Assembly: GCA_017437905.1 (NCBI GenBank)
Contig: JAFRWY010000055.1
Coordinates: 1 to 55,671 of the forward strand
Length of the DNA: 55,671 nucleotides
DNA from: Eubacterium sp.
GTDB lineage: Bacteria > Bacillota > Clostridia > Lachnospirales > Lachnospiraceae
Direction of reading: 5' to 3'
Shown here: piece after piece, positions 714-48,186 of the stretch
Layout of the letters: each line of letters opens with the position of its first letter
How positions within the stretch are numbered: the stretch's first letter is position 1
Position numbers and translations under genes: made by a program
Notes under the pieces: model-generated
What the model was told of the DNA's origin: nothing
Databases searched by the model: none
The model's input: only the letters and a program-made list of their open reading frames with translations

Positions 714-986
714 TTAAGGTTTTGAAGAATCATTTTCTGGAATCAATGTTGAGGCAAGTAGCTTAGAAGGGTTGACGTTCAAAGCATCGGAAATATTAAA
801 GAAAATATCAAGAGAAAATGCACGGACCGTATTTGGATTTTCAATCATACTGAGAAATGATCGGCTGATACCAGCCTTTTCAGCAAGTTGCTCCTGAGAC
901 AATCCTTGATATTTTCGTAGTGCTGCTATGGAAAGACCTATCTGAATTAAACGGTCTCGATTATTAAACGATTCTGAATTACGCAT
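714..986 (-). CDS. XRE-family HTH transcriptional regulator
   Basis: A 90-residue protein that is almost entirely a Cro/C1-type helix-turn-helix domain. It has the typical order: LRKYQGLSQEQLAEKAGIS, then SRSFLSMIENPNTVRAFSLD, then a hydrophobic helix ending in LNVNPSKLL. The frame stays open further upstream, but the start at 986 is chosen because AGGAGAGGAG lies just before it and the family fold begins there. The gene is divergent from the collagen-like/cohesin gene at 1210, and a perfect inverted repeat overlaps that gene's -35 box. Control of the surface-protein locus is therefore plausible, by inference from position. Confidence 0.88.
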   Translation of the reverse strand: MRNSESFNNRDRLIQIGLSIAALRKYQGLSQEQLAEKAGISRSFLSMIENPNTVRAFSLDIFFNISDALNVNPSKLLASTLIPENDSSKP

Positions 987-1135
987 TTGCTCCTCTCCTG
1001 TGGAGTATGTGTGGTTTTGTGTATTAGATTTCCGAAAAAGATTCACTCTTGCGAGCCAAAGCCTGAATTTCCATGACACCTTTTAGGATATTATACGAAC
1101 CAGCGATTAATAAATCAGCATAATAAAATAAACAT

Positions 1136-1164
1136 TTGACTAAAATAGTAGTCAGTGATAGAAT
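1136..1164 (+). promoter_or_regulatory. Promoter of the collagen-like/cohesin gene
   Basis: TTGACT (1136-1141), a 17-nt spacer and TAGAAT (1159-1164) form a good sigma-A-type promoter about 45 nt upstream of the start at 1210. Confidence 0.75.
1137..1154. promoter_or_regulatory. Candidate operator: perfect inverted repeat over the -35 box
   Basis: TGACTA at 1137-1142 and TAGTCA at 1149-1154 form a perfect 6-bp inverted repeat with a 6-nt centre. It covers the -35 hexamer, the size and place expected for a dimeric XRE repressor, and the divergent gene at 986 encodes one. Binding itself is inferred. Confidence 0.55.
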
Positions 1165-1209: not shown

Positions 1210-3474
1210 ATGAAAAACAAATTGATAACTGCATTGATTGCCGTTTTGTTAGCTGGTGTAGCTGTTGGCGTTGCACTTCTAATAAAGGGTGACAAAGAAG
1301 GAAAAAATGGATCAGACGGAAAATCAGCATATGAAGTGGCAGTGGAAAATGGCTTTAATGGCACAGCGGAGGAATTCTTGGCTTCCCTTGTTGGAGAAAA
1401 GGGTGAGGCAGGAAAATCTGCATATGATATTGCTGTGGAACACGGTTATTCAGGCTCAGAAGATGAATGGGTTAATACGTTATTAGAGCGTTCGAGTGCT
1501 TCTATTGCGGGCATCAATGGCAAGGATGGAAAAGACGGTCAGGATGGAAAGAATGGTGTGAATGGAAAAGACGGCGCGAATGGAAAGAATGGCCAGAACG
1601 GAAAAGATGGTGTTGATGGAAAAGACGGCCAGAACGGAAAAGACGGTGTTGATGGAAAAGATGGTCTGAACGGAAAAGATGGTGTTGATGGAAAAGACGG
1701 CGTTAATGGAAAAAACGGGACAGATGGAAAATCCACATATGATCTCGCGATTGAAAATGGATTTCAGGGAACATTGGCTCAATGGCTTGATACTCTTGTA
1801 GGAGAAGACGGTGTTGATGGTAAAGCAGGCGAGAATGGAAAATCCGCTTATGAACTTGCAGTGGAAAATGGATTTAAGGGGACTTTAACAGAGTGGTTGT
1901 CTTCGCTTATCGGTGAGCAGGGAATCCCTGGAGTAGGTGGTGAAAATGGTAAGTCTGCTTATGAATTGGCTGTTGAAAATGGATATACAGGATCGTTGCA
2001 GGATTGGTTAGCAGCTATCGTAGATAAAACAGGGGCATCCGCTTATGAAATTGCGGTGCAAAAAGGCTTTAGTGGTACAGAAGAAGAATGGTTAGCATCT
2101 CTTGCTGGACGAACGGGAAAATCAGCATATGAGTTGGCGGTAGAAAATGGATATACAGGTAATATTACAGAGTGGCTTGCGTCTTTAGTTGGAGAAACAG
2201 GCGCAGATGGAAAATCTGCATATGAAATTGCTGTAGCAAATGGATATAAAGGGACAGAAAAAGCTTGGCTTGAATCATTGGTTGGAACGGGCGGTGTCGT
2301 TGGAAAGGATGGTAAAGACGGAAAATCTGCATATGATTTAGCAGTAGAAGCAGGTTATTCTGGAACATTAACAGAATGGTTGACTTCTCTAGTTGGCCCT
2401 CAAGGACCAAAAGGAAAGGATGGCGCATCGGCATATGACATTGCAGTACAGAACGGGTTTACAGGCTCCGTACAGGAATGGCTGGTGTCGTTAGTTGGTT
2501 CAAGTGGTTCTAATGGAAAGTCTGCTTATGATCTCGCAGTTGAGCATGGCTTCACTGGAAGCGTTCAGGATTGGTTATCGTCTCTGGTAGGCGCAAAGGG
2601 TGATAAGGGAGATCCTGGCGAAAAAGGTGCGAAAGGTGAAGTGGGAGAAAAGGGTGAATCAGGCGCAAAAGGTGAGACAGGAGAAAAGGGTGAGCCTGGC
2701 GCAAAAGGTGAAACAGGAGAAAAGGGTGAACGAGGAGCAACAGGAACAAGTGTAGTCAATGCTTATGTAAATGGAGAGAAGCATTTGATCCTTGTAATGA
2801 GCGACGGAAGTGAAATCGATTCTGGTTATGTAGGAGTGACGGACAGTCAAGGAGAAGAGAACCCCAAAACGAAATACACTGTGGTTTTCAAGGACTATGA
2901 TGATTCAGTGATAAAGTCAGAAACTGTGGAGGAAGGCAGTGACGCTACACCGCCCACAGATCCGACAAGAGATGGATACAGGTTTATCGGTTGGGAAGGA
3001 ATATATACTAACATTACAGCAAATGCTGTGATTACAGCGAAATATGAAGAGGAAACCAATACCTCACCAACCATGATTGTTGCCTCCGTTGAAGCAAATG
3101 CAGGTGAAAGTGGAATAGTGATTCCAATTACAATAAGTAATAATCCTGGTTTGCTTGGAATGACATTAACTGTATCGTTTGATGAATCTGCTTTGAAATT
3201 AAAGACCGCAACAAACGGTGATGCATTAAGTTCTTTGACGTTGACCAAAGCAAAAGTATTAAAGAGCGGATGTAATTTTGTTTGGGATGGTCAGGAACTG
3301 GAGGAAGAAGACATCAAGGATGGAACAGCATTGATATTAACATTTGACGTTTTAGATGGGGCAGCAGCAGGTACGTATCCAATTACAATTTCTTATTCGG
3401 ATGGAGATATTATTGACGGAGAATTAATGCCAGTAAGCATGAATTTAAAAAACGGAAAGGTTGTAGTTAAATAA
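1210..3474 (+). CDS. Exported collagen-like repeat protein with C-terminal cohesin domain
   Basis: 754 residues. An N-terminal hydrophobic segment (about 5-25) acts as signal or anchor. Next come about eleven copies of a roughly 30-residue repeat (core SAYE/D-hA-x-NG-x-G-T/S-x-x-EW) linked by GKDG/GKNG runs. A Gly-X-Y collagen-like block follows (about 460-515), then an InlB-type repeat ending in RFIGWEGIY, and a C-terminal cohesin-like domain (about 620-754). The cohesin matches the one in the next protein, including FVWDGQEL and EDIKDG. There is no sortase motif. The ribosome site is CGGAGGA and expression probably starts at the TTGACT/TAGAAT promoter. The next gene starts 54 nt downstream. 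The role is inferred: an extended fibrous surface stalk that presents a cohesin for dockerin proteins. Confidence 0.85.
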   Translation: MKNKLITALIAVLLAGVAVGVALLIKGDKEGKNGSDGKSAYEVAVENGFNGTAEEFLASLVGEKGEAGKSAYDIAVEHGYSGSEDEWVNTLLERSSASIAGINGKDGKDGQDGKNGVNGKDGANGKNGQNGKDGVDGKDGQNGKDGVDGKDGLNGKDGVDGKDGVNGKNGTDGKSTYDLAIENGFQGTLAQWLDTLVGEDGVDGKAGENGKSAYELAVENGFKGTLTEWLSSLIGEQGIPGVGGENGKSAYELAVENGYTGSLQDWLAAIVDKTGASAYEIAVQKGFSGTEEEWLASLAGRTGKSAYELAVENGYTGNITEWLASLVGETGADGKSAYEIAVANGYKGTEKAWLESLVGTGGVVGKDGKDGKSAYDLAVEAGYSGTLTEWLTSLVGPQGPKGKDGASAYDIAVQNGFTGSVQEWLVSLVGSSGSNGKSAYDLAVEHGFTGSVQDWLSSLVGAKGDKGDPGEKGAKGEVGEKGESGAKGETGEKGEPGAKGETGEKGERGATGTSVVNAYVNGEKHLILVMSDGSEIDSGYVGVTDSQGEENPKTKYTVVFKDYDDSVIKSETVEEGSDATPPTDPTRDGYRFIGWEGIYTNITANAVITAKYEEETNTSPTMIVASVEANAGESGIVIPITISNNPGLLGMTLTVSFDESALKLKTATNGDALSSLTLTKAKVLKSGCNFVWDGQELEEEDIKDGTALILTFDVLDGAAAGTYPITISYSDGDIIDGELMPVSMNLKNGKVVVK

Positions 3475-3528
3475 GGATTGTATAATAGTCGGTTGATTTT
3501 TGTAAGAAACAGAGAGAGGAGGAGCGCC

Positions 3529-6500
3529 ATGAAAAAACACAGGTTTATTGCACTTATTCTTGTGCTGATGCTGGTGTTAGGTTTTATGCCTGTAAGTGTT
3601 GCAAGAGCAGATAACAACATAACAAGTATTTCTGTGGAAAGTGTGTATGCAACGCCTGGTGACACAGTAAGTGTTAATGTTTACGTAAAGAATAATCCCG
3701 GAATTCTGGGAGCAACACTCAGATTTGATGTTGATGAAGGGTTGTCTATTGTTGATGCTACAAATGGAGAAGCCTTTGAAGCTCTTGAACTGACTAAGCC
3801 TGGAACATATGCGTCGTCTTGCCAGTTTGTATGGGATTGTCAGGAATTATCAGCTGAAGATGTAAAGGATGGAGTTATTCTTACATTGAGCATTAAGGCG
3901 GATGATAGTATTGAGCCTATTAAAGATCTTGGAATTAAAATAACGTATAAAAATGGGGATATTTTCGACACATCTATGAGCATTATTAAGCCGGAGTTAG
4001 CAGATGGTGGCGTAAAAGTGCTAAGCTATTATCCGGGAGATGTAAATGGTGACAAGAAAGTCAATACCACAGATGTAGTTTTAATTCGTCGGTTTATTGC
4101 CGGGGGTTATGGTGTAACAATCAATGAAGCTGCTGCTGATGTAAATGCAGACGGTAAGTATAATGCCATGGACGTGGTTCTTATTCGGCGTTATATTGCA
4201 GGAGGGTATGATGTAGTTCTCAAACCATCAACCGGAATCTGCGATCATTCAATGACGGCGGTGGCGTATAAAGCTCCTACCTGCACGGAGGATGGTAACA
4301 TTGCTTACTGGCACTGCACAAAGTGTGATAAGTATTTTACAGATGTTGAGGGTATTGCGGAAACCTCGTATGAAAATACTGTTATTATTGCACCCGGACA
4401 TACGCCGGTAATTGATGAAGCGGTCGAAGCGACCTATACTAATACAGGTTTGACAGAGGGTTCACATTGCTCAGTATGTAATAAAATCCTGAAGGCGCAG
4501 GAAACAATTCCAATGCTTCAGAAGGACCAGTACTCAGTTATTTATCATTTAGATAACAACGATAGTTACTTAAAGCAGATCACAATCGACAATCCGAATC
4601 CGAATTACTATTCGCCGGAAGATGGATTGGTGCTTAGTAATCTAAAGGTTGACGGGTATGAGTTTATTGGATGGTTTGATGGACAAAGTGAATCGGCCAC
4701 AATGATTAAGGAAATTCCAAAGGGGTCTACGGGAAAGAAGGAATTATATGCTCACTGGAATGAAATTGAATATACAATTCAATTTGATCCGGGATCAACA
4801 GCTTTAGTGGACGTACCTTCAAAAACGTATAAAGTTAGTCAGGGAACGACACTTCCGAATCCGAGCTGGTTTGGATATACCTTTGTTGGATGGACAGATG
4901 CAAATGGGCAATTAATCAGAAGTGTAAAGACAGGAACCACAGGAAATCTTACGCTGTATGCAAACTGGACCAGTAAGAGAAATCAGACTATTCCAGTAAA
5001 ATCCTTAGGATCTCCGTATATTATGGAGGACGAGGATAACGGAACAATCCTTTTTGCATATGAAATCGGAAGAATGGAGAATGTTCCGTTATATACGATA
5101 AAGGATTTGGGGAATCAGGCTGGAATTACAATCACGGAAACAATCACAACGAGTGGATCGATTACACAATCATCAGCCGAAACAATTGCGGAGGCGATTT
5201 CTGAAGCAACAACACATTCGTCTTCATGGTCGCTGTCGAAGGAATGGAATGATACGATTATTAATAGTGAAAGCCATGAAAGTGGAAGTGAGTCCGGATC
5301 GTCTTCCTCATCTACTGATTCGATCAATATCGGAGGAAAAGCAAATCAGAATTTAGGAGTTGGAGGCGCCTCATCTTATACGACAGAGGAAGGTATCTCT
5401 TCTAAGAACACAGTTGGAGCTTCTGTTGAGGCGGAAATGTCTGCTTCTGGATTCGGAGTAAAGGCAGGCGTAAAGAGCAAAGTAGAAGCAACTTCTGAGG
5501 AAGGGTATAATTATAAAGAGTCCGGAACGGATTCACAAAACTGGAATTCCTCTCGTGGATATGAAGCAAGTAAAGATGCAAGCCACAGCAGTAGTTATTC
5601 CAGCTCATTCAGCTCACATATAAGCGACCGATATGATCTTTCTACATCGCATTCTGTGGGTGGAGGTACGATTGAAACCAATGGTCTTGTGTCAGTAAAG
5701 AGTAAGGAAAATGAGTATTCATCAGCATTGTCTTATTCTAAAGCACAGACAGAAACCACAACAAAGCAGTATACAAATGCAAATGCGCCTGAAGGCTATT
5801 ATCGGATAGTTTGTGCAGGAACGGTTCATGTCTATGCAGTAGTAGGATACGATATTGCAACAAGATCTTATTTTGTATATACATACAATGTAATTGATGA
5901 TAAGACAACCGATTTTATTGATTATTCAAAGTCCACACCGAATTTTGATGATTATGAAAATGGTGTACTTCCGTTTGAAGTTCCATTTTATGTCAAGGAA
6001 TATGTGGACGGGCGTGTAGGAGCAACAGATGGCTTGATTCTTGATGTGAATTCTGGAAAGATTACAGGATACACAGGCACAGCCGAGAATGTTGTGATCC
6101 CGAGTTATATGTCGCTTGAAAACACGGATGGAACGTTTGAGGCCATCAAGATTAAAGGAATTGAGTCAGATGCATTTTCCGGTAACACATCATTAGTAAC
6201 AGTTAGTTTACCGGATTCCGTGACTGAAATTCCCGATAATGCATTTTCCGGTTGTACATCATTGACGGATGTTGCTTGTTCGGGGGTTGTAAAAATAGGG
6301 CGTAATGCCTTTAAGGATTGCACTCAGCTGAAGACGTTTACTGTGAATCCGCAGGTGACAAGCCTTGGCAATAACTCCTTCGACGGAGTAGATAAGGTTA
6401 TTGTAAATGCGGCAAATGCATCTGTTGCTGAATCGGCTGTATATTCAGGAGCCAAAAGCATAGTAATTAATACAGGAAACATGATTGATGCTCTTACAGG

Positions 6501-7599
6501 ACGGACGCTTCACGTTCCATCATCGACGGATTATTTTGAATTTAATGGTTCCGGAAAAACTTATGAAAATGTAAGACTTCTTTCCGATGCGAAGGAAACG
6601 GTTATTAACTCTGCAACTTTTGGTGGAACGACAGCAGTACTATTAAAGCTGTCCTCTTCGAAAGTAACGTTAAACCGAATAACTGTAAATGCAACGGGTT
6701 TTGGTTTGATATTGACGGCGGATTCGGCAGATGTGGCATTGTATGGAAACTCGACTGTAAATTCTGAAAAAGGAAATGCGGTATTAAGTAAATCGGTTGC
6801 GCTGTCCTGGGTAAACAGTAGTGTTTCAGGTAAACTTACTAATAATGGAAATATGATGGTTTGCGGTACGGTTTCCGGAGATAAGAATCTATCATTTGTT
6901 AATGGAAAGGTAGTATATATTAACGAAGATTCTTTTGAACAGATGATGAATGATTCAGTTGAGTGGATACTTGCCTCTGAAGCGCCGGCTGATGCAATAA
7001 TAATTGGAGAAAAGTGGACATACGATTATAAAACAACAATTGAATCCGATGTAAACGAAGTAGAGGGATATACGTTGTATGATACAACCTGGACATGGGG
7101 ACCGTGGGGTAATTGGTCTTCTTGGTCGAGAACGGCTGCTACAAAGAGTGATTCAAGGGATGTAGAGACACGTATTATTCCAGCAACTACAAAAACACAG
7201 TGGCAGTATTCTCGTTATTATGGTGTTGGATCGACGGGGTATTACTATTGCTATCCTCGTGCCACAGGTGTATGTCAGACCTATGAGAATACAAATTGGT
7301 TGGATTCACCGCTGCCCGATGAATGGGATGGAGAGTTTACCGGATATGGTAGAGGGTATGATGTAAACGGAAACTACGTAACCGGTCGAAACGGCTCAAG
7401 ATGGGATATGTGGTGGTACAATCCGAGTACAAGAACTGTTGAAGCAACTTCGGCATACACAGAGTACAGATATCGAGACAGGAGTCTGATTTATACATAT
7501 CATTTGTATAAGTTGGATCAGATGGAATCAAATGAAGAAGTAATAGCGTCGGATAGCATTAGCAATGTTCAAAAATGGGTTAAGTGCGTGGCAAACTAA
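3529..7599 (+). CDS. Large secreted protein: cohesin, dockerin, InlB-type repeats, beta-rich segment, LRR
   Basis: 1356 residues starting at ATG 3529 after GAGGAGG. Signal peptide 1-27 ends ARADNN. A cohesin-like domain (about 30-160) is followed by a dockerin (about 169-232) with two Ca-loop repeats, GDVNGDKKVNTTDVVLIRR and ADVNADGKYNAMDVVLIRR. A Cys-containing module follows (CDHSMT, CTKCDKYF, CSVCNK). Two InlB-type repeats (about 335-480) come next, with FIGWFDG and FVGWTDA. A long Ser/Thr/Gly-rich region of alternating polarity (about 490-800) precedes BspA-type leucine-rich repeats (about 880-985). The C-terminus is rich in Trp and Tyr (WGPWGNWSSWSR). It is probably co-transcribed with the preceding cohesin protein. 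The Ser/Thr-rich region resembles beta-pore-forming stems, but that is only a hypothesis. Confidence 0.85.
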   Translation: MKKHRFIALILVLMLVLGFMPVSVARADNNITSISVESVYATPGDTVSVNVYVKNNPGILGATLRFDVDEGLSIVDATNGEAFEALELTKPGTYASSCQFVWDCQELSAEDVKDGVILTLSIKADDSIEPIKDLGIKITYKNGDIFDTSMSIIKPELADGGVKVLSYYPGDVNGDKKVNTTDVVLIRRFIAGGYGVTINEAAADVNADGKYNAMDVVLIRRYIAGGYDVVLKPSTGICDHSMTAVAYKAPTCTEDGNIAYWHCTKCDKYFTDVEGIAETSYENTVIIAPGHTPVIDEAVEATYTNTGLTEGSHCSVCNKILKAQETIPMLQKDQYSVIYHLDNNDSYLKQITIDNPNPNYYSPEDGLVLSNLKVDGYEFIGWFDGQSESATMIKEIPKGSTGKKELYAHWNEIEYTIQFDPGSTALVDVPSKTYKVSQGTTLPNPSWFGYTFVGWTDANGQLIRSVKTGTTGNLTLYANWTSKRNQTIPVKSLGSPYIMEDEDNGTILFAYEIGRMENVPLYTIKDLGNQAGITITETITTSGSITQSSAETIAEAISEATTHSSSWSLSKEWNDTIINSESHESGSESGSSSSSTDSINIGGKANQNLGVGGASSYTTEEGISSKNTVGASVEAEMSASGFGVKAGVKSKVEATSEEGYNYKESGTDSQNWNSSRGYEASKDASHSSSYSSSFSSHISDRYDLSTSHSVGGGTIETNGLVSVKSKENEYSSALSYSKAQTETTTKQYTNANAPEGYYRIVCAGTVHVYAVVGYDIATRSYFVYTYNVIDDKTTDFIDYSKSTPNFDDYENGVLPFEVPFYVKEYVDGRVGATDGLILDVNSGKITGYTGTAENVVIPSYMSLENTDGTFEAIKIKGIESDAFSGNTSLVTVSLPDSVTEIPDNAFSGCTSLTDVACSGVVKIGRNAFKDCTQLKTFTVNPQVTSLGNNSFDGVDKVIVNAANASVAESAVYSGAKSIVINTGNMIDALTGRTLHVPSSTDYFEFNGSGKTYENVRLLSDAKETVINSATFGGTTAVLLKLSSSKVTLNRITVNATGFGLILTADSADVALYGNSTVNSEKGNAVLSKSVALSWVNSSVSGKLTNNGNMMVCGTVSGDKNLSFVNGKVVYINEDSFEQMMNDSVEWILASEAPADAIIIGEKWTYDYKTTIESDVNEVEGYTLYDTTWTWGPWGNWSSWSRTAATKSDSRDVETRIIPATTKTQWQYSRYYGVGSTGYYYCYPRATGVCQTYENTNWLDSPLPDEWDGEFTGYGRGYDVNGNYVTGRNGSRWDMWWYNPSTRTVEATSAYTEYRYRDRSLIYTYHLYKLDQMESNEEVIASDSISNVQKWVKCVAN

Positions 7600-7619
7600 T
7601 AATTCAAGAAATACCCGAT

Positions 7620-7662
7620 GGCAGGAGTCGAAAGGCTCCTGCCAATTATTAGTGTTTTTTCT
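7620..7662 (+). terminator. Terminator after the surface-protein pair
   Basis: GGCAGGAG (7620-7627) and CTCCTGCC (7636-7643) form a perfect stem, extended by flanking AT pairs and followed by TTTTTT from about 7655. It closes the two-gene unit. Confidence 0.85.
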
Positions 7663-43212: not shown

Positions 43213-44097
43213 CTATAGTCGTTCCTTTACATATCCGTAGAAATCTTTGGCGTACTGATACTGCCGGAGGATATAATCCCCGAAATCTTCGCCCACCTGC
43301 TGCTTGAACTCGCACCAGTTGCTCCAGAGCAGCCCTGAGATGGCCGTGTAGCAGTAGATCTTGGTCCGTACCGCTTCGGGACAGGCCCCTTCGAAGTACA
43401 GGTCAATCAGGTGATCCACCTCCTCCTTCGAGTAGAGGCTGTAGATCGCAAACATGGCGATATCCACATGGGGGTCCTGCATCCCGGCGTATTCCCAGTC
43501 CGTCAGCTGCAGCTTCTCCGACCCGTCCTGCATATAGAAGAGGAAGTTGTCCGGTACTGCGTCGATGTGTGTCAGGCTGTAATCCTTTGGCTGTGCATCG
43601 ATAATACTCTTCAGCTCAAAGACGTGGGCCTTCACCTCTTCATAATCCGGGAAGATGGAAGGGGTTCCGCACCGAAGACCTTCGTACAGATTGATCTGAC
43701 CGAAGAGCGGATACTCATTTCGCACCCGGATCTTCTTTTCATGAAACTGCCGGAGCAGCCGCATACACCGTATCAGATCCTCTTCTTTCTTCGGATCGCA
43801 GCTCCGCGCTCCCTCCAGAAACCGGGTGATCTTGATGCCTGTTCCCGGGTCGATATAGTAGGGATCATCGCAGAAGCCGTATCCGCTGATGGCCCGGAAG
43901 ATCTCTGCTTCCGCCCTCCGGTCGATCAGACGGTCCGTGCCCTCCCCTGGAATCCGGAGGATATACTTCTCTTCGCGCACACGAAACAGGAAGGAGCGGT
44001 TGGTCATGCCCTTCTTCATCACACGGACGTCTTTGATCTCTGTCTCACTGCAGTGAAAGACCTGTGTAATTAACTGGATCGCAAGCGATTTGTTCAT
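43213..44097 (-). CDS. LicA-like choline kinase
   Basis: 294 residues; AAAGGGAAAA lies before the ATG at 44097. The choline/ethanolamine kinase fold shows the Brenner motif THIDAVPDNFLF (catalytic Asp) and the metal-binding LTDWEYAGMQDPHVDIAMF. It would phosphorylate imported choline. In Haemophilus and Streptococcus, licA sits with a choline importer (LicB) and a cytidylyltransferase (LicC) for decoration of surface polymers with phosphocholine. Here the importer is a BCCT protein; LicC and LicD are not obvious in the window. Confidence 0.85.
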   Translation of the reverse strand: MNKSLAIQLITQVFHCSETEIKDVRVMKKGMTNRSFLFRVREEKYILRIPGEGTDRLIDRRAEAEIFRAISGYGFCDDPYYIDPGTGIKITRFLEGARSCDPKKEEDLIRCMRLLRQFHEKKIRVRNEYPLFGQINLYEGLRCGTPSIFPDYEEVKAHVFELKSIIDAQPKDYSLTHIDAVPDNFLFYMQDGSEKLQLTDWEYAGMQDPHVDIAMFAIYSLYSKEEVDHLIDLYFEGACPEAVRTKIYCYTAISGLLWSNWCEFKQQVGEDFGDYILRQYQYAKDFYGYVKERL

Positions 44098-44114
44098 GTG
44101 GATGCATTTTCCCT

Positions 44115-44161
44115 TTCTCGTGAACTAATGGTCATTGTAGCAGTGTTCACGAGAATGTCAA
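44115..44161 (-). promoter_or_regulatory. Promoter with operator of the choline uptake/kinase genes
   Basis: On the minus strand TTGACA (44161-44156), 16 nt and TACAAT (44139-44134) form a strong promoter. A perfect 11-bp inverted repeat, TTCTCGTGAAC (44115-44125) and GTTCACGAGAA (44145-44155), places one arm in the -35/-10 spacer and the other near +1. A further half-site GTGAAC follows at 44175-44180. This fits repression by a dimer or tetramer. Confidence 0.75.
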
Positions 44162-44311
44162 TATATAATTTTGGTGAACAAAGCGGTTATTTGGTAGAGT
44201 AGTTGCAAGACCGGGCCATTTGAAAGATAATGGGGAAGAATACTTAGTGTATTTTTACCATTAATGCGTCTAAAGGACAGATTAGTTTACGTGAGAGGAA
44301 AGGAGTCATCA

Positions 44312-44866
44312 ATGGATAACGGTGCAAGTAGCTACCGCCGTTTTCTGGATGGTGATGATCAGGGGATGGAGGAACTGATCCGTGATTATAAAGACGGACT
44401 GCTTCTCTATCTGAATAAATATATCCAAAGTATAAGCTGTGCGGAGGATTGTGTTCAGGAAGCCTTTATACGCCTTGCGATAAAGAAACCGAAGTTTCGC
44501 GGACACAGTTCCTTTAAAACCTGGTTATATGCCATCGGAAGAAACGAAGCAATTTCATTCCTGCGAAAGGATAAGTCGCGGTGCATCGTCAGTTTGGAGG
44601 ATGCTGAGGAGATCAGCTCGAAAACGGATCTGGAACGTGACTATCTGAAGGATGAACAAAAGCTCCAGCTGCATCAGGCCATCGGACAGTTGAAACCGGA
44701 GTATCAGCAGGTGCTCTGGCTTACGGTTTTCGAAGGCTTCCGGAATGAAGAGGCAGCAAAGATCATGCGAAAGTCAAAGAAACAGATCGAGAATCTTCTC
44801 TATAACGCAAAGAAAGCGTTGCGCACCGAGATGGAAAGCGAGGGGTATCAGTATGAAGGATTATAA
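44312..44866 (+). CDS. ECF-type sigma factor, choline-module locus
   Basis: 184 residues from ATG 44312, with GAAAGGAG before it. The sigma-2 region (about 10-80) has CAEDCVQEAFIRLAIKK, and sigma-4 (about 120-175) has a helix-turn-helix (NEEAAKIMRKSKKQIENLLYNAKKALR). The next gene begins inside its 3' end, the usual arrangement of sigma factor and membrane anti-sigma factor. It may drive the choline-binding protein gene downstream. Confidence 0.92.
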   Translation: MDNGASSYRRFLDGDDQGMEELIRDYKDGLLLYLNKYIQSISCAEDCVQEAFIRLAIKKPKFRGHSSFKTWLYAIGRNEAISFLRKDKSRCIVSLEDAEEISSKTDLERDYLKDEQKLQLHQAIGQLKPEYQQVLWLTVFEGFRNEEAAKIMRKSKKQIENLLYNAKKALRTEMESEGYQYEGL

Positions 44867-46046
44867 GGAGATGACGAAATGTGTCCTTGAGGCACGTGAC
44901 GCACATGAAGCGAAAAAAGGGAAAAAACTATCAAAAGCTTCGGGTGCCAATACAGCTTCAACGGGTGAGGTATACTCCGTAAAGAAAACCGATAAAAAGA
45001 AGGTTATGCTTGGCATTGCTCCGGTCTTTGGAGGCGTGTTGGTGGCTGTATTGATCGGGATCATTGTATCAGATTATTCTGTGGACCGGACGGAAGAAGT
45101 GTCTACGGAGATTATTACTGAATCAACAGAACAGGAAACAACGGAGGAACTCCGCCGGGAGATGGCAACTGTAGCTACAAAGGAAGAGCAGTCGAATCTG
45201 AATGAAAACAATGAGCCCGAGCCGGATAATCAGAGTATCGAAAATCATGAGAAGAAATATGGGATTGTAAAGAGATCGACAAATACAAACAATGAACAGT
45301 CAAAGGAGTCGGATGGTCCCGGGGCGGAGGAGAATGAACCGACAGTCGGACCCGGAGGAGATACTTCGAATGCTGAACCAAACGAAGAGAGTTCACCAAT
45401 TAAGCCGGAGGAAAAAGAACCGTCATTTGAGACGGATGATCCATCCCTGAATGAACCCATAGATGAAGATATTGAAGCGGAAGGGCCGGATGATCTGACA
45501 GAGGGAGGAAAATTCTTCCAATGGAAAGAGGTTCTTCCGGGAGAGGGTGACATTGTATATGTACTATGCTCTGGCAGCAACAAATTTAGTGGCAGCGAAT
45601 CAAACGCGTACGAAAAGCGTTATAAGGGGATGACAATAGCTGGCTACGTCTTTATCAATAGGGACGGATGTGTCAAATCGATGGATGAAAATGGCATCAC
45701 ATTGGAAATGCTTCAATCAACGGATTTTAGCAGCGTTAAAAAGAATCTGAATGAACTGGATGCCAAAATGATAGCAGAAGGTTATAATAGATGTAAATCC
45801 TCACCAAACGCCGGTACAGATCCGGTTATCAAAAAAAGTAATCAGGGGTCTTCGTTGGTTTATATTATAACTTATCAAAATGACAATGACTCCGGATTCA
45901 ATGAAAAATATGGATTCTCGGATTCGCTGAAAACAAGGAGAAAGGTAGAATATGACCTGATTACCGGAAGGCTTCTTTATGAATATCTGGCATCCATTGA
46001 TGAAAACGGAAATATCGTCGGAAATCCGGTGGAAATCGTGTATTAG
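44853..46046 (+). CDS. Putative membrane anti-sigma factor
   Basis: 397 residues; the start at 44853 overlaps the sigma factor stop by 14 nt. A cytosolic 50-residue N-terminus precedes one membrane helix (about 51-74), followed by an acidic Glu/Ser/Thr-rich disordered stretch and a small extracellular domain (about 225-397). It is not recognised by sequence as a named anti-sigma family. Translational coupling and topology support the call. Confidence 0.7.
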   Translation: MKDYKEMTKCVLEARDAHEAKKGKKLSKASGANTASTGEVYSVKKTDKKKVMLGIAPVFGGVLVAVLIGIIVSDYSVDRTEEVSTEIITESTEQETTEELRREMATVATKEEQSNLNENNEPEPDNQSIENHEKKYGIVKRSTNTNNEQSKESDGPGAEENEPTVGPGGDTSNAEPNEESSPIKPEEKEPSFETDDPSLNEPIDEDIEAEGPDDLTEGGKFFQWKEVLPGEGDIVYVLCSGSNKFSGSESNAYEKRYKGMTIAGYVFINRDGCVKSMDENGITLEMLQSTDFSSVKKNLNELDAKMIAEGYNRCKSSPNAGTDPVIKKSNQGSSLVYIITYQNDNDSGFNEKYGFSDSLKTRRKVEYDLITGRLLYEYLASIDENGNIVGNPVEIVY

Positions 46047-46093
46047 TAAGAGGTATACATTCGAAGGATTGGCAAATGAAGGGAGTGCTTCAC

Positions 46094-47608
46094 ATGAAGA
46101 AAGGTATAATCGAAAGAAGGATAAAAATTGCGTTGTTGGGGGTTGTCTCCTGTTTATCTATAGGATTTCCGGTTTGTGCCAAGGAGGATCCCCAGAATAC
46201 GGAAGGGATTGAAATTAGTAGCGAAAACTTCCCGGATGAACTTCTTCGCGAGTACGTGGAAGCGTTTGATACTGTCCAGGATGGCTTTCTTTCCACGGAA
46301 GAGATTGCAGAAGTTAAAACGATGCAATTGTATAATGGCTTTACTGACATTACCGGAATCAAGTATTTCACTGCTTTGGAGGAACTGCGCCTAAGTGGTG
46401 ATGAGATTAAGAGTCTGGACTTAAGCGGATGCACATCCCTAAAAAAGATGGTATTCTACGGGAATCCTTACTTTGAGGTGGACAGCCTGAGTCTGGAGGG
46501 CTGTACATCTCTTATAGAGTTGAACTGTACTTCAAATAACCTGTCGGAGCTTAATCTGAAGGGCTGTACATCTCTTACACAACTAAACTGTAGCGGAAGC
46601 AATCTATCGGAGCTTGATCTGAAGGATTGTACATCTTTAAAACGGTTGTATTGCAATCGAAATAATCTCTCATCTCTGGATGTAAGCAAATGTGTTTTGC
46701 TGGAGCGACTGTGGTGTGATCAAAACAACCTGAAAAAACTGGATGTAAGTGCCAACACAGCTCTGGTACAGATTTATTGCGCCGATAATGAGATTGAGTC
46801 ATTGGATGTTAGCTCCAATACTGCGCTTACAACACTTTTATGTGATCGAAATGGTTTATCAACGTTGGATGTGAGCGCCAACAAAGCGCTGACATTTCTG
46901 GATTGTTCCGGCAACAGCCTATCAAGGCTGGATCTTCGACAAAATAAGAATTTGAGAAGTCTGGATGCGAAAGGAAATGGAACGTTATTACTCCTTGTCG
47001 GGGAGAATTCCTGGCTTAACCAAACATTTAAAGAAGGAACAAGATATGAATCAAGTATGTTTGATCCGAATGGTGACGGACAAGATATCATAACTATAGT
47101 TTATAAAATGGATAATGAAAATGTATTAGACCTTGGTCAGGATGTTATTCTGGGAACTAAGGAACCATTCGTTGGATGGAAACAGGATTCCGGCCTGAGA
47201 TGGCGGTATTTCAATAAGAACGGTACACTTGCCATCGGATGGACAAAGATCAAAAACAAATGGTATTACTTTGACCGATCCGGGATTATGAAGACCGGCT
47301 GGAAGAAGTATGGCGGGAAATGGTATTATCTGAGCCCGGATTACGGATACATGATAACCGGGTGGAAGAAGTTTTCCTATAATTGGTACTACTTTAAGAC
47401 GGATGGCTCCATGGCTGAGAAGGAGTATTGCAGGGGATACTGGCTGGAATCAAATGGTGTATGCACACGCGAGATAGAAGCATCCTGGCACAAGACATCT
47501 AAGGGATGGTGGTACGGAGATGCCTCCGGCTGGTATGCAAAGGATCAGAAACTGAAAATCGACGGGATCATCTGTACGTTTGATAAAGAAGGATATCTGG
47601 TTGAATAA
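46094..47608 (+). CDS. Secreted LRR protein with choline-binding-type repeats
   Basis: 504 residues from ATG 46094 (GGGAG before it). Signal peptide 1-29. An EF-hand-like stretch near DGFLSTEEIAEV precedes about ten 21-residue leucine-rich repeats of the internalin-like LDLSxCTSLxxL form (about 95-290). The C-terminal third carries four or five choline-binding-type repeats: GWTKIKNKWYYFDRSG, GWKKYGGKWYYLSPD and GWKKFSYNWYYFKTDG. Such repeats bind phosphocholine on cell-wall polymers. It is the last gene of the sigma/anti-sigma unit, opposite the choline uptake/kinase genes. Confidence 0.92.
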   Translation: MKKGIIERRIKIALLGVVSCLSIGFPVCAKEDPQNTEGIEISSENFPDELLREYVEAFDTVQDGFLSTEEIAEVKTMQLYNGFTDITGIKYFTALEELRLSGDEIKSLDLSGCTSLKKMVFYGNPYFEVDSLSLEGCTSLIELNCTSNNLSELNLKGCTSLTQLNCSGSNLSELDLKDCTSLKRLYCNRNNLSSLDVSKCVLLERLWCDQNNLKKLDVSANTALVQIYCADNEIESLDVSSNTALTTLLCDRNGLSTLDVSANKALTFLDCSGNSLSRLDLRQNKNLRSLDAKGNGTLLLLVGENSWLNQTFKEGTRYESSMFDPNGDGQDIITIVYKMDNENVLDLGQDVILGTKEPFVGWKQDSGLRWRYFNKNGTLAIGWTKIKNKWYYFDRSGIMKTGWKKYGGKWYYLSPDYGYMITGWKKFSYNWYYFKTDGSMAEKEYCRGYWLESNGVCTREIEASWHKTSKGWWYGDASGWYAKDQKLKIDGIICTFDKEGYLVE

Positions 47609-47675
47609 TTGAGGCAAATCCTCTGACCGAAAGGCCGCCTATCAAGTACGATGAACTACGCAACGCGCTTAGCGG

Positions 47676-47758
47676 TTGACAGGCTTTGACAAAATGACGT
47701 AAAATGAATCTGCGGCGGTACAGTAGGGACGGTTTCGTATAACCTGCTGCACCGCCGT
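47676..47758 (+). promoter_or_regulatory. Promoter and leader hairpin of the DUF3592-like gene
   Basis: TTGACA (47676-47681), 18 nt and TAAAAT (47700-47705). Just after the expected start site, GCGGCGGT (47712-47719) with ACCGCCGT and an inner CAGTAGG/CCTGCTG stem form a long leader hairpin (47712-47758). Confidence 0.6.
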
Positions 47759-47781
47759 AAATCATTTAAGGTGGATCGTGT

Positions 47782-48186
47782 ATGAAGAGCATTGCTGCGG
47801 TAGTTGTAATACTGGTACTTCTGGTGGAACTGTATTTTATCACCGCCGGAAGCCAGCATAGGAAGAAGAAGCTGACGAAAGGCTGGAACCGGACGAAGGG
47901 TACGATCCGGAGTATCGAAAAGGTGCAGGATAATGTGGGCGCCAGCCGGAAGAGCTACATGGAGCTCACCATCGATGCAGAGAGCGGGCAGACCGTGTAC
48001 GGGCGTATCGGAATGCTTTGTATCTATGAGGTTGGCGAAGAAGTGGAGCTGATGGAGAAGGACGGGTATCATAAGTTTCTCGGAAATGATCGTGTGGATG
48101 CCCGCGGGAAGAAGGAGCTTCTTCTGGGAACAATTCCCATGCTGGTGCTGATCGCGGTGGTTGCATCGCTTAGTTTCTTCTTTTAG
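47782..48186 (+). CDS. DUF3592-like small membrane protein
   Basis: 134 residues, ribosome site AAGGTGG. A membrane helix at about 3-22, a small beta-rich domain (about 35-110) with TKGTIRSIEKVQ and VGEEVELMEKDG, and a C-terminal helix (about 114-133). This topology matches DUF3592-type proteins of unknown function. The downstream ybaK gene follows after 24 nt, probably co-transcribed. Confidence 0.75.
   Translation: MKSIAAVVVILVLLVELYFITAGSQHRKKKLTKGWNRTKGTIRSIEKVQDNVGASRKSYMELTIDAESGQTVYGRIGMLCIYEVGEEVELMEKDGYHKFLGNDRVDARGKKELLLGTIPMLVLIAVVASLSFFF

Follow-up and report, generated by a model that had tools for sequence, protein, structure and literature searches.

Outside cellulosomes, cohesins and dockerins occur in many bacteria and archaea (PMC9012536), and a two-protein complex of Clostridium perfringens is one of the few such systems with a known use (PMC5429695). 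Here, we analyse a two-gene cohesin/dockerin locus at positions 1210..7599 of a 55,671-nucleotide contig of Eubacterium sp. (Lachnospiraceae; JAFRWY010000055.1, assembly GCA_017437905.1), the whole of which is called the window. Gene A (1210..3474, plus strand, 754 residues) encodes a putatively membrane-rooted, collagen-like stalk with a C-terminal cohesin, and gene B (3529..7599, plus strand, 1356 residues) encodes a predicted secreted adhesin with a cohesin directly in front of a dockerin. The closest design to this locus is the pair ORF2375/ORF2376 of Archaeoglobus fulgidus, two consecutively numbered open reading frames (ORFs) with a dockerin in one and a cohesin in the other and no cellulosome, for which strong and specific cohesin-dockerin binding has been reported (PMC9705933). 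The host of that pair, however, is an archaeon. ORF2375 presumably bears a cohesin, too, and we know of no collagen stalk, surface-layer (S-layer) anchor, adhesin with leucine-rich repeats (LRR) and InlB repeats, or counterpart of the Ser-rich module of gene B (module S) in the Archaeoglobus pair. The partners of the Clostridium perfringens complex, compared here by description and not by sequence, are soluble secreted proteins, and no anchored stalk or chain-link protein is known among them. As in the window locus, they are joined by cohesin and dockerin and are non-cellulosomal (PMC5429695). Adaptor and anchoring scaffoldins also combine cohesin and dockerin in one chain and use S-layer anchors (PMC4959524, PMC9012536), but there the dockerin and the cohesins are directed at different partners and the cargo is enzymes, whereas the modules of the window locus co-vary as if they had one specificity and carry an adhesin. 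The ANME (anaerobic methanotrophic) archaea have many non-cellulosomal dockerin and cohesin proteins, some of them with both modules, but the cargo is different, and a conserved operon of anchor and adhesin is not described in the available part of that paper (PMC9012536). The streptococcal Scl family shares the collagen stalk at the surface, and SclB is the top NCBIfam match of protein A, although its 110 bits fall far short of the cut-off of 325. Unlike Scl proteins, protein A has no sorting signal (LPXTG), and its tip is a cohesin. The window locus, with cohesin-dockerin partners but without cellulolytic cargo, belongs to the non-cellulosomal surface systems and is a novel variation on them; among the open-licence papers listed, none was found to describe such a system, judged from titles and the beginnings of abstracts.

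The locus is best explained as a two-gene non-cellulosomal surface structure in which protein B docks on protein A, probably forming an anchored chain A-B-B-B. Protein A would be held in the membrane by its N-terminal hydrophobic helix (1225..1284, plus strand; a signal anchor recognised by eye), and its collagen/SAYE stalk, in which the collagen would imply a trimer, would take the cohesins through the wall to the exterior. The secreted protein B would clip onto cohesin A with its calcium-binding dockerin, and its adhesive part, consisting of the InlB repeats, the LRR, the Ser-rich module, and the Trp-rich end, would thereby be displayed at the surface, where it may bind something outside. 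The chain would grow if cohesin B accepted the dockerin of the next protein B. Because cohesin B has the same apparent specificity and lies directly before the dockerin, another protein B could clip on, and A-B-B-B is the most likely product. Judging from the sequences, such a chain would be the likeliest mechanism.

The assembly comprises 3.09 Mb in 133 contigs and is rated 100% complete with a contamination of 4.12; a profile search of all of it identified two cohesins and one dockerin, every one of them in this locus. Therefore, the only known partners of dockerin B within the organism are cohesins A and B, and because the sole dockerin found sits on protein B there is no cellulosome. Plant-polysaccharide enzymes bearing a dockerin were not found in the genome, and neither was a scaffoldin with several cohesins, A and B carrying one cohesin each; protein B is without an enzyme domain in Pfam. 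The non-cellulolytic use proposed in the original prediction agrees with this search, in which no glycoside hydrolase with a dockerin was detected either. The coordinates given there for the locus are correct, and its cohesin, dockerin, and collagen assignments are all matched by Pfam. Cohesin A (3070..3468, plus strand), rightly placed at the C-terminus, scores 30.0 bits in the protein hmmscan and 35.0 bits in the genome search with PF00963. Cohesin B (3628..4020, plus strand) scores 29.5 bits in the genome search, so that both pass the curated cut-off of 24.1, although cohesin B is absent from the protein hmmscan list. To call the two cohesins very similar was an overstatement, since they are only 39% identical overall (BLASTP 3e-26); the 67% identity of a patch in strand 5 refers to a stretch hand-picked after the alignment had been inspected. 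Type I dockerins consist of two calcium-binding F-hand repeats with D-x-N-x-D...D loops. The dockerin of protein B (4033..4197, plus strand; residues 169-223, Dockerin_1, PF00404, 55.7 bits) is of this type, with the motif present in both canonical loops, which look intact by eye.

The pair is conserved beyond the window. Cohesin-dockerin combined with module S is present in twelve loci (the window, L063, L116, L118, L131, L132, L133, L156, L157, L159, L160, and L183), and in 11 of them a gene with a cohesin at its end is found near gene B on the same strand, either adjoining it (the window, L063, L116, L118, L159, and L183) or one gene off (L131, L133, L156, L157, and L160). Together with the domain architecture this backs the idea, already put forward for the window, of a stalk plus an adhesin. 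The locus L063, from a metagenome-assembled genome of goat colon, contains the same pair: its gene A has an N-terminus of the same kind, a membrane helix, and likewise contains collagen and ends in a cohesin, though it has a single strict SAYE motif where the window has eleven, and its gene B is colinear throughout. End-to-end, gene B of the window is 40% identical to that of L063, 37% to that of L116, and 36% to that of L118; the latter two loci were obtained by searching 397 family genomes with a cohesin-dockerin query, module S being checked in part of those matches. Of 392 genomes of the order, searches with module S or the whole gene B retrieved one, that of the window, and of 391 genomes of the class they retrieved five (the own one, three strong, and one divergent). 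Within the genus, two of 61 genomes (the own one and G1198) have most of gene B, and within the family f35 module S occurs in at least seven of 70, six with and one without cohesin-dockerin. The raw tallies for f35 (56/70) and the genus (7/61) contain numerous matches confined to LRR, InlB, CxxC, or bare cohesin/dockerin pieces. In L158:3936-8069, a module S protein has neither cohesin nor dockerin.

Across these loci the anchor of gene A has been exchanged, and its C-terminal cohesin is constant. The anchor consists of membrane helix and collagen in the window and L063, and of S-layer homology (SLH) domains in L118, L131, L133, L156, L157, L159, and L160. An S-layer-type gene A is also found in L161, where, however, gene B has other cargo. 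For gene A of L116 no known anchor domain was recognised, and gene A of L183 is interrupted by the contig edge. SLH domains were counted in nine genomes, which do not include those of L156, L159, L161, and L183. Four of the five genomes with an SLH-type gene A in this count have 90 (G1118, L160), 112 (G923, L133), 118 (G816, L131), and at least 150 matches (G1132, L157), those with the collagen type two (window) and none (L063), and the others 48 (G942, L132) and none (G211, L116). The collagen version thus sits in genomes nearly devoid of SLH domains.

That cohesins A and B are of equal specificity is suggested by their co-variation. The dockerin-binding face of cohesins is formed by strands 8-3-6-5 (front), with strands 9-1-2-7 behind (PMC8063739, PMC5934362). 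Each cohesin A was compared with each cohesin B, and the identity within genomes was set against shuffled pairings (20000 shuffles). This comparison keeps L161, which carries other cargo, and L134, whose module S is divergent, and leaves out L132 (no gene A), L158 (no cohesin-dockerin), gene C of L118, and gene K of L183. The front/back split was taken from the papers, and the strand limits were set by hand after the sliding profile had been seen, with a low-confidence model as part of the basis. Our scripts used cohesin and dockerin profiles built from these same proteins, so that the E-values for the window and the first relatives are circular and no proof. In the sliding profile, the excess of A-B identity within genomes falls on strands 3, 5, and 8 and on the 5-6 and 7-8 loops, with a smaller rise ahead of strand 5, and it is absent from strands 2, 4, 7, and 9. 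Across 12 genomes the identity of the front face is 0.473 within genomes versus 0.361 for shuffled pairs, a difference reached in 1 of 20000 shuffles, and that of the back face is 0.271 versus 0.256, reached in 2556 of 20000. Adding L183 (13 genomes) gives 0/20000 for the front and 4709/20000 for the back, a subset of seven genomes with two f35 members 9/20000 and 2654/20000, and a set of six genomes, one for each dockerin class and with 720 possible orders, 34/20000 and 2179/20000, respectively. The front result persists when any single genome is left out (at most 3/5000). The identity of the dockerin helices follows that of the front face (r 0.89 for A, 0.84 for B, and 0.88 for A against B); the correlations with the back face are lower (0.45, 0.67, and 0.45), although these are also above most shuffles. 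The self-assembly of protein B, which the original prediction had considered because both partners are present in it, gains indirect support from this co-variation of cohesin A, cohesin B, and dockerin and from the lack of any other dockerin in the genome search.

There are, however, several observations that weigh against an anchored chain. Strand 6, although part of the front, is weak alone (1874/20000), and strand 1, although part of the back, shows a tendency like that of the front (616/20000). The family f35 alone gives no signal (front 4762/20000), which is as expected if all f35 dockerins belong to one class but equally as expected of nothing. In the five genomes outside f35 the front is reached in 192 of 20000 shuffles, but the back also leans (660/20000). 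In the tree, cohesin A joins cohesin B of its own genome for L134 and for L063, and duplication therefore accounts for part of the co-variation, which rests on about six dockerin classes. The null result in f35, the leaning back face outside f35, and the grouping in the tree mean that there are few independent contrasts. As to the architecture, L132 has no gene A beside gene B, which itself has two cohesins. The genome of L118 (G339) uses SLH domains yet is not SLH-rich, having five matches, which are those of gene A (two) and gene C (three). The AlphaFold model of a linked chain of cohesin A, linker, and cohesin-dockerin B has a mean predicted local distance difference test score (pLDDT) of 56.2 and a predicted template modelling score (pTM) of 0.31, with the cohesins poorly modelled, and speaks neither for nor against docking. 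Finally, G211 and G715 have four dockerins each, so that cohesin B might serve others there.

These four-dockerin genomes would fit an arrangement in which dockerin B binds cohesin A for anchoring only and cohesin B receives an outside partner, be it a protein of the strain or the dockerin of another species, without any chain. Adaptor scaffoldins, which have a dockerin together with cohesins for other partners, are known precedents (PMC4959524). Of the alternatives this one survives best, but we consider it unlikely because neither the window genome nor G339 has a dockerin found besides that of protein B, and because within a genome the binding face of cohesin B is of cohesin A's type. It is harder to imagine that the dockerin folds back on its own cohesin and is freed only on protein A, as a latency device. 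In each of the 12 gene B rows read (a 13th, L134, was left out) the dockerin directly adjoins the cohesin, which speaks for self-capping, but only a handful of residues separates the last cohesin strand, which belongs to the back sheet, from the first calcium loop. Such a short linker should not reach the opposite front sheet, a geometrical argument made by inference and not from a model, and self-capping is therefore improbable. Duplication or gene conversion within each lineage could have made the A and B cohesins alike, the modules being structural spacers that do not bind. The grouping by genome in L134 and L063 and the missing signal within f35 speak for this, but the excess likeness is confined to strands 3, 5, the 5-6 loop, and the 7-8 loop with strand 8, and does not extend to strands 2, 4, 7, and 9, and both calcium loops of the dockerin look intact, so that we give this explanation as little credit as self-capping. 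A remnant or piece of a cellulosome, despite the identical module families, can practically be dismissed and was rejected, because the whole-genome search finds no cohesin or dockerin beyond this locus and the carrier of the dockerin is adhesin-like and lacks a Pfam enzyme domain. The docking of B on A, likely continued as a chain of B proteins, thus remains the explanation that we prefer.

Additional cohesin proteins accompany the pair in relatives. Each of the six f35 loci that combine cohesin-dockerin with module S has a gene with two cohesins and no dockerin (gene M), located between A and B in five of them and after B in L159; the pairing signal of its cohesins with cohesins A or B is weak or absent. 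In G1198, of the window's genus, a protein with four cohesins, Big_3 domains, and choline-binding repeats is encoded beside gene B (L183:4346-8077) and resembles a scaffoldin, though its neighbour is an adhesin. Its four cohesins were identified with a custom profile (2e-40 to 7e-46), the Pfam cohesin model not being listed for that protein. By inference, gene M and this four-cohesin protein look like branching pieces. Next to the pair of L118, an extra protein with signal peptide (L118:183-4919) combines a cohesin, recognised by profile, with YDG/Big_3 and three SLH domains. In f35, cohesin-dockerin tandems also end other surface proteins with LRR, lectin, amidase, or InlB domains (L162-L164, L167-L169), which adjoin genes with one or two cohesins, and in L161 the same operon has a gene B with an unrelated C-terminal part. 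The cohesin-dockerin connector of this family therefore seems to be a general display device. In G160, of the same genus as the window, adjacent genes (L123:6553-10866) encode two proteins with cadherin-like domains, one with a dockerin and the other cohesin-like, and the cohesin passes the cut-off only together with its neighbours. In other genomes of the family, places matching dockerin and cohesin are separated by a few hundred bases, and a single 24 kb contig (G353:C71) has at least six dockerin-like places.

Both genes of the window locus are on the plus strand with 54 bases between them. In gene A, the SAYE/D-type repeats (1321..2592, plus strand) are interspersed with collagen triplets; eleven were counted, as had been estimated. 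The collagen annotation was right as well, but instead of a single block the longest runs are two blocks of 25 (1510..1734) and 18 G-X-Y triplets (2590..2751), besides which there are four short runs. An InlB/Flg_new repeat follows at 2875..3012. In Pfam, protein A matches Collagen with 6e-22 and Flg_new/InlB with 7e-8. The DUF2934 and Ank_2 matches, of which no single stretch passes, were taken as repeat artefacts and discarded. A lipobox and a C-terminal sorting signal were both looked for by eye in protein A and not found; because the cohesin is the extreme C-terminus there is no sortase signal. The SAYE/collagen part (about residues 29-468) also matches phage tail-fibre, tail-sheath, and other phage proteins with 44-56% identity in the best 10 of 347 records (H18-H27). 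Gene B had been described correctly except for its start codon, which is not TTG 3478 but ATG 3529 with the Shine-Dalgarno sequence GAGGAGG immediately 5'. The signal peptide (3529..3609), recognised by eye, and the cohesin-dockerin are followed on the plus strand by a region with two conserved CxxC motifs (4237..4548, from the alignment), InlB/Flg_new repeats, the stronger of the two being located at 4771..4962, module S (4966..6123), BspA-type LRR (6148..6390), and a partly conserved Trp/Tyr-rich C-terminal region (6931..7596). The InlB-type and leucine-rich repeats and the dockerin originally read from the sequence are confirmed by Pfam (Flg_new 4e-12, LRR_5 1e-17, and Dockerin_1 as given above). 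Module S is about 40% identical across the aligned relatives. It has no Pfam family of note (one chance-level match in one of four members) and no sequence relative found in the PDB, and matches the NCBIfam 'serine-rich protein' NF033849 weakly in four of four members (best 9e-6; window 14.3 bits versus a cut-off of 650). AlphaFold of module S and one relative gave a pLDDT of 28, too low to be of use. Among the matches of gene B listed from plasmid and phage collections, only the InlB and LRR parts match (10 of 12 plasmid and 7 of 7 phage records). A divergent XRE-type regulator (714..1079, minus strand; Pfam) is a possible controller. The promoter-like site 5' of gene A (1136..1164, plus strand, 10/12 match, extended -10) is weak because the scan gave 15 such sites versus 21.2 in shuffled sequences, fewer than expected by chance. 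An intrinsic terminator-like hairpin lies 3' of gene B (7619..7644, plus strand).

The locus is probably an imported island. Genes A and B have 41-43% guanine-cytosine (GC) and 29-33% GC at third codon positions (GC3), compared with 53.1% GC downstream and a GC3 of 62.7-72.5 in eight of the nine other window genes measured; the GC3 of the remaining one, 46076-47608, is 46.2. Close to the contig end there is a tRNA-Cys gene (196-267), and in the tree the nearest cohesins are those of f35 and not those of the family mates L116 and L118. The AT-richness, the tRNA gene, the presence of most of gene B in just two of the 61 genus members, and the relation to f35 all point to import. A second AT-rich stretch of the window (44001-48000, 44% GC) encodes a protein with LRR and choline-binding repeats at 46076-47608. 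A tyrosine recombinase gene is located directly 5' of gene A in four of the twelve loci (L063, L131, L156, and L157); in L183 this side lies off the contig. The recombinases of L063 and L157 are 54% identical, and in both loci inverted repeats between recombinase and gene A enclose candidate invertible segments of about 200 bp: 204 bp between repeats of 37 nt with 78% complementarity in L063 (5555-5591 and 5796-5832) and 184 bp between repeats of 26 nt with 88% complementarity in L157 (10629-10654 and 10839-10864). The repeats score 19, whereas the scores of 100 resampled sequences per locus do not exceed 13 and 12. A promoter scan of the two segments gives no more sites than shuffled sequences. 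In L131:9226-10587 and L156:7717-9056 the recombinase gene lies wholly or for the most part between perfect inverted repeats (27 and 33 nt), and perfect repeats of 27 nt surround a recombinase in L169:10332-11682, a locus with other cargo. These repeat-flanked recombinases of L131, L156, and L169 have 356-456 residues and are directly 5' of cohesin-dockerin operons. No segment-flanking repeats were found 5' of gene A in L160, L133, L118, and L116 (palindrome or hairpin only, in two), and no phase-variation repeats were found within 268-1400 of the window. The recombinases and inverted repeats suggest phase switching, and what is seen in these relatives looks like phase variation.

Taken more widely, and only as a tentative view, the locus could represent a head-to-tail cohesin-dockerin polymer, a non-covalent pilus-like fibre of gut Clostridia encoded by an island that has spread between families, with exchangeable anchor, branching piece (the two- and four-cohesin proteins), and cargo, and with switching by DNA inversion in some lineages. 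Since the whole set comprises two conserved genes with an exchangeable anchor, three small modules would suffice here to test what non-cellulosomal cohesin-dockerin pairs are for. A chain, if it does form, would amount to a surface polymer that is held together non-covalently and depends on calcium, in contrast to sortase pili, and the locus and its relatives would then provide mutually exclusive connector pairs.

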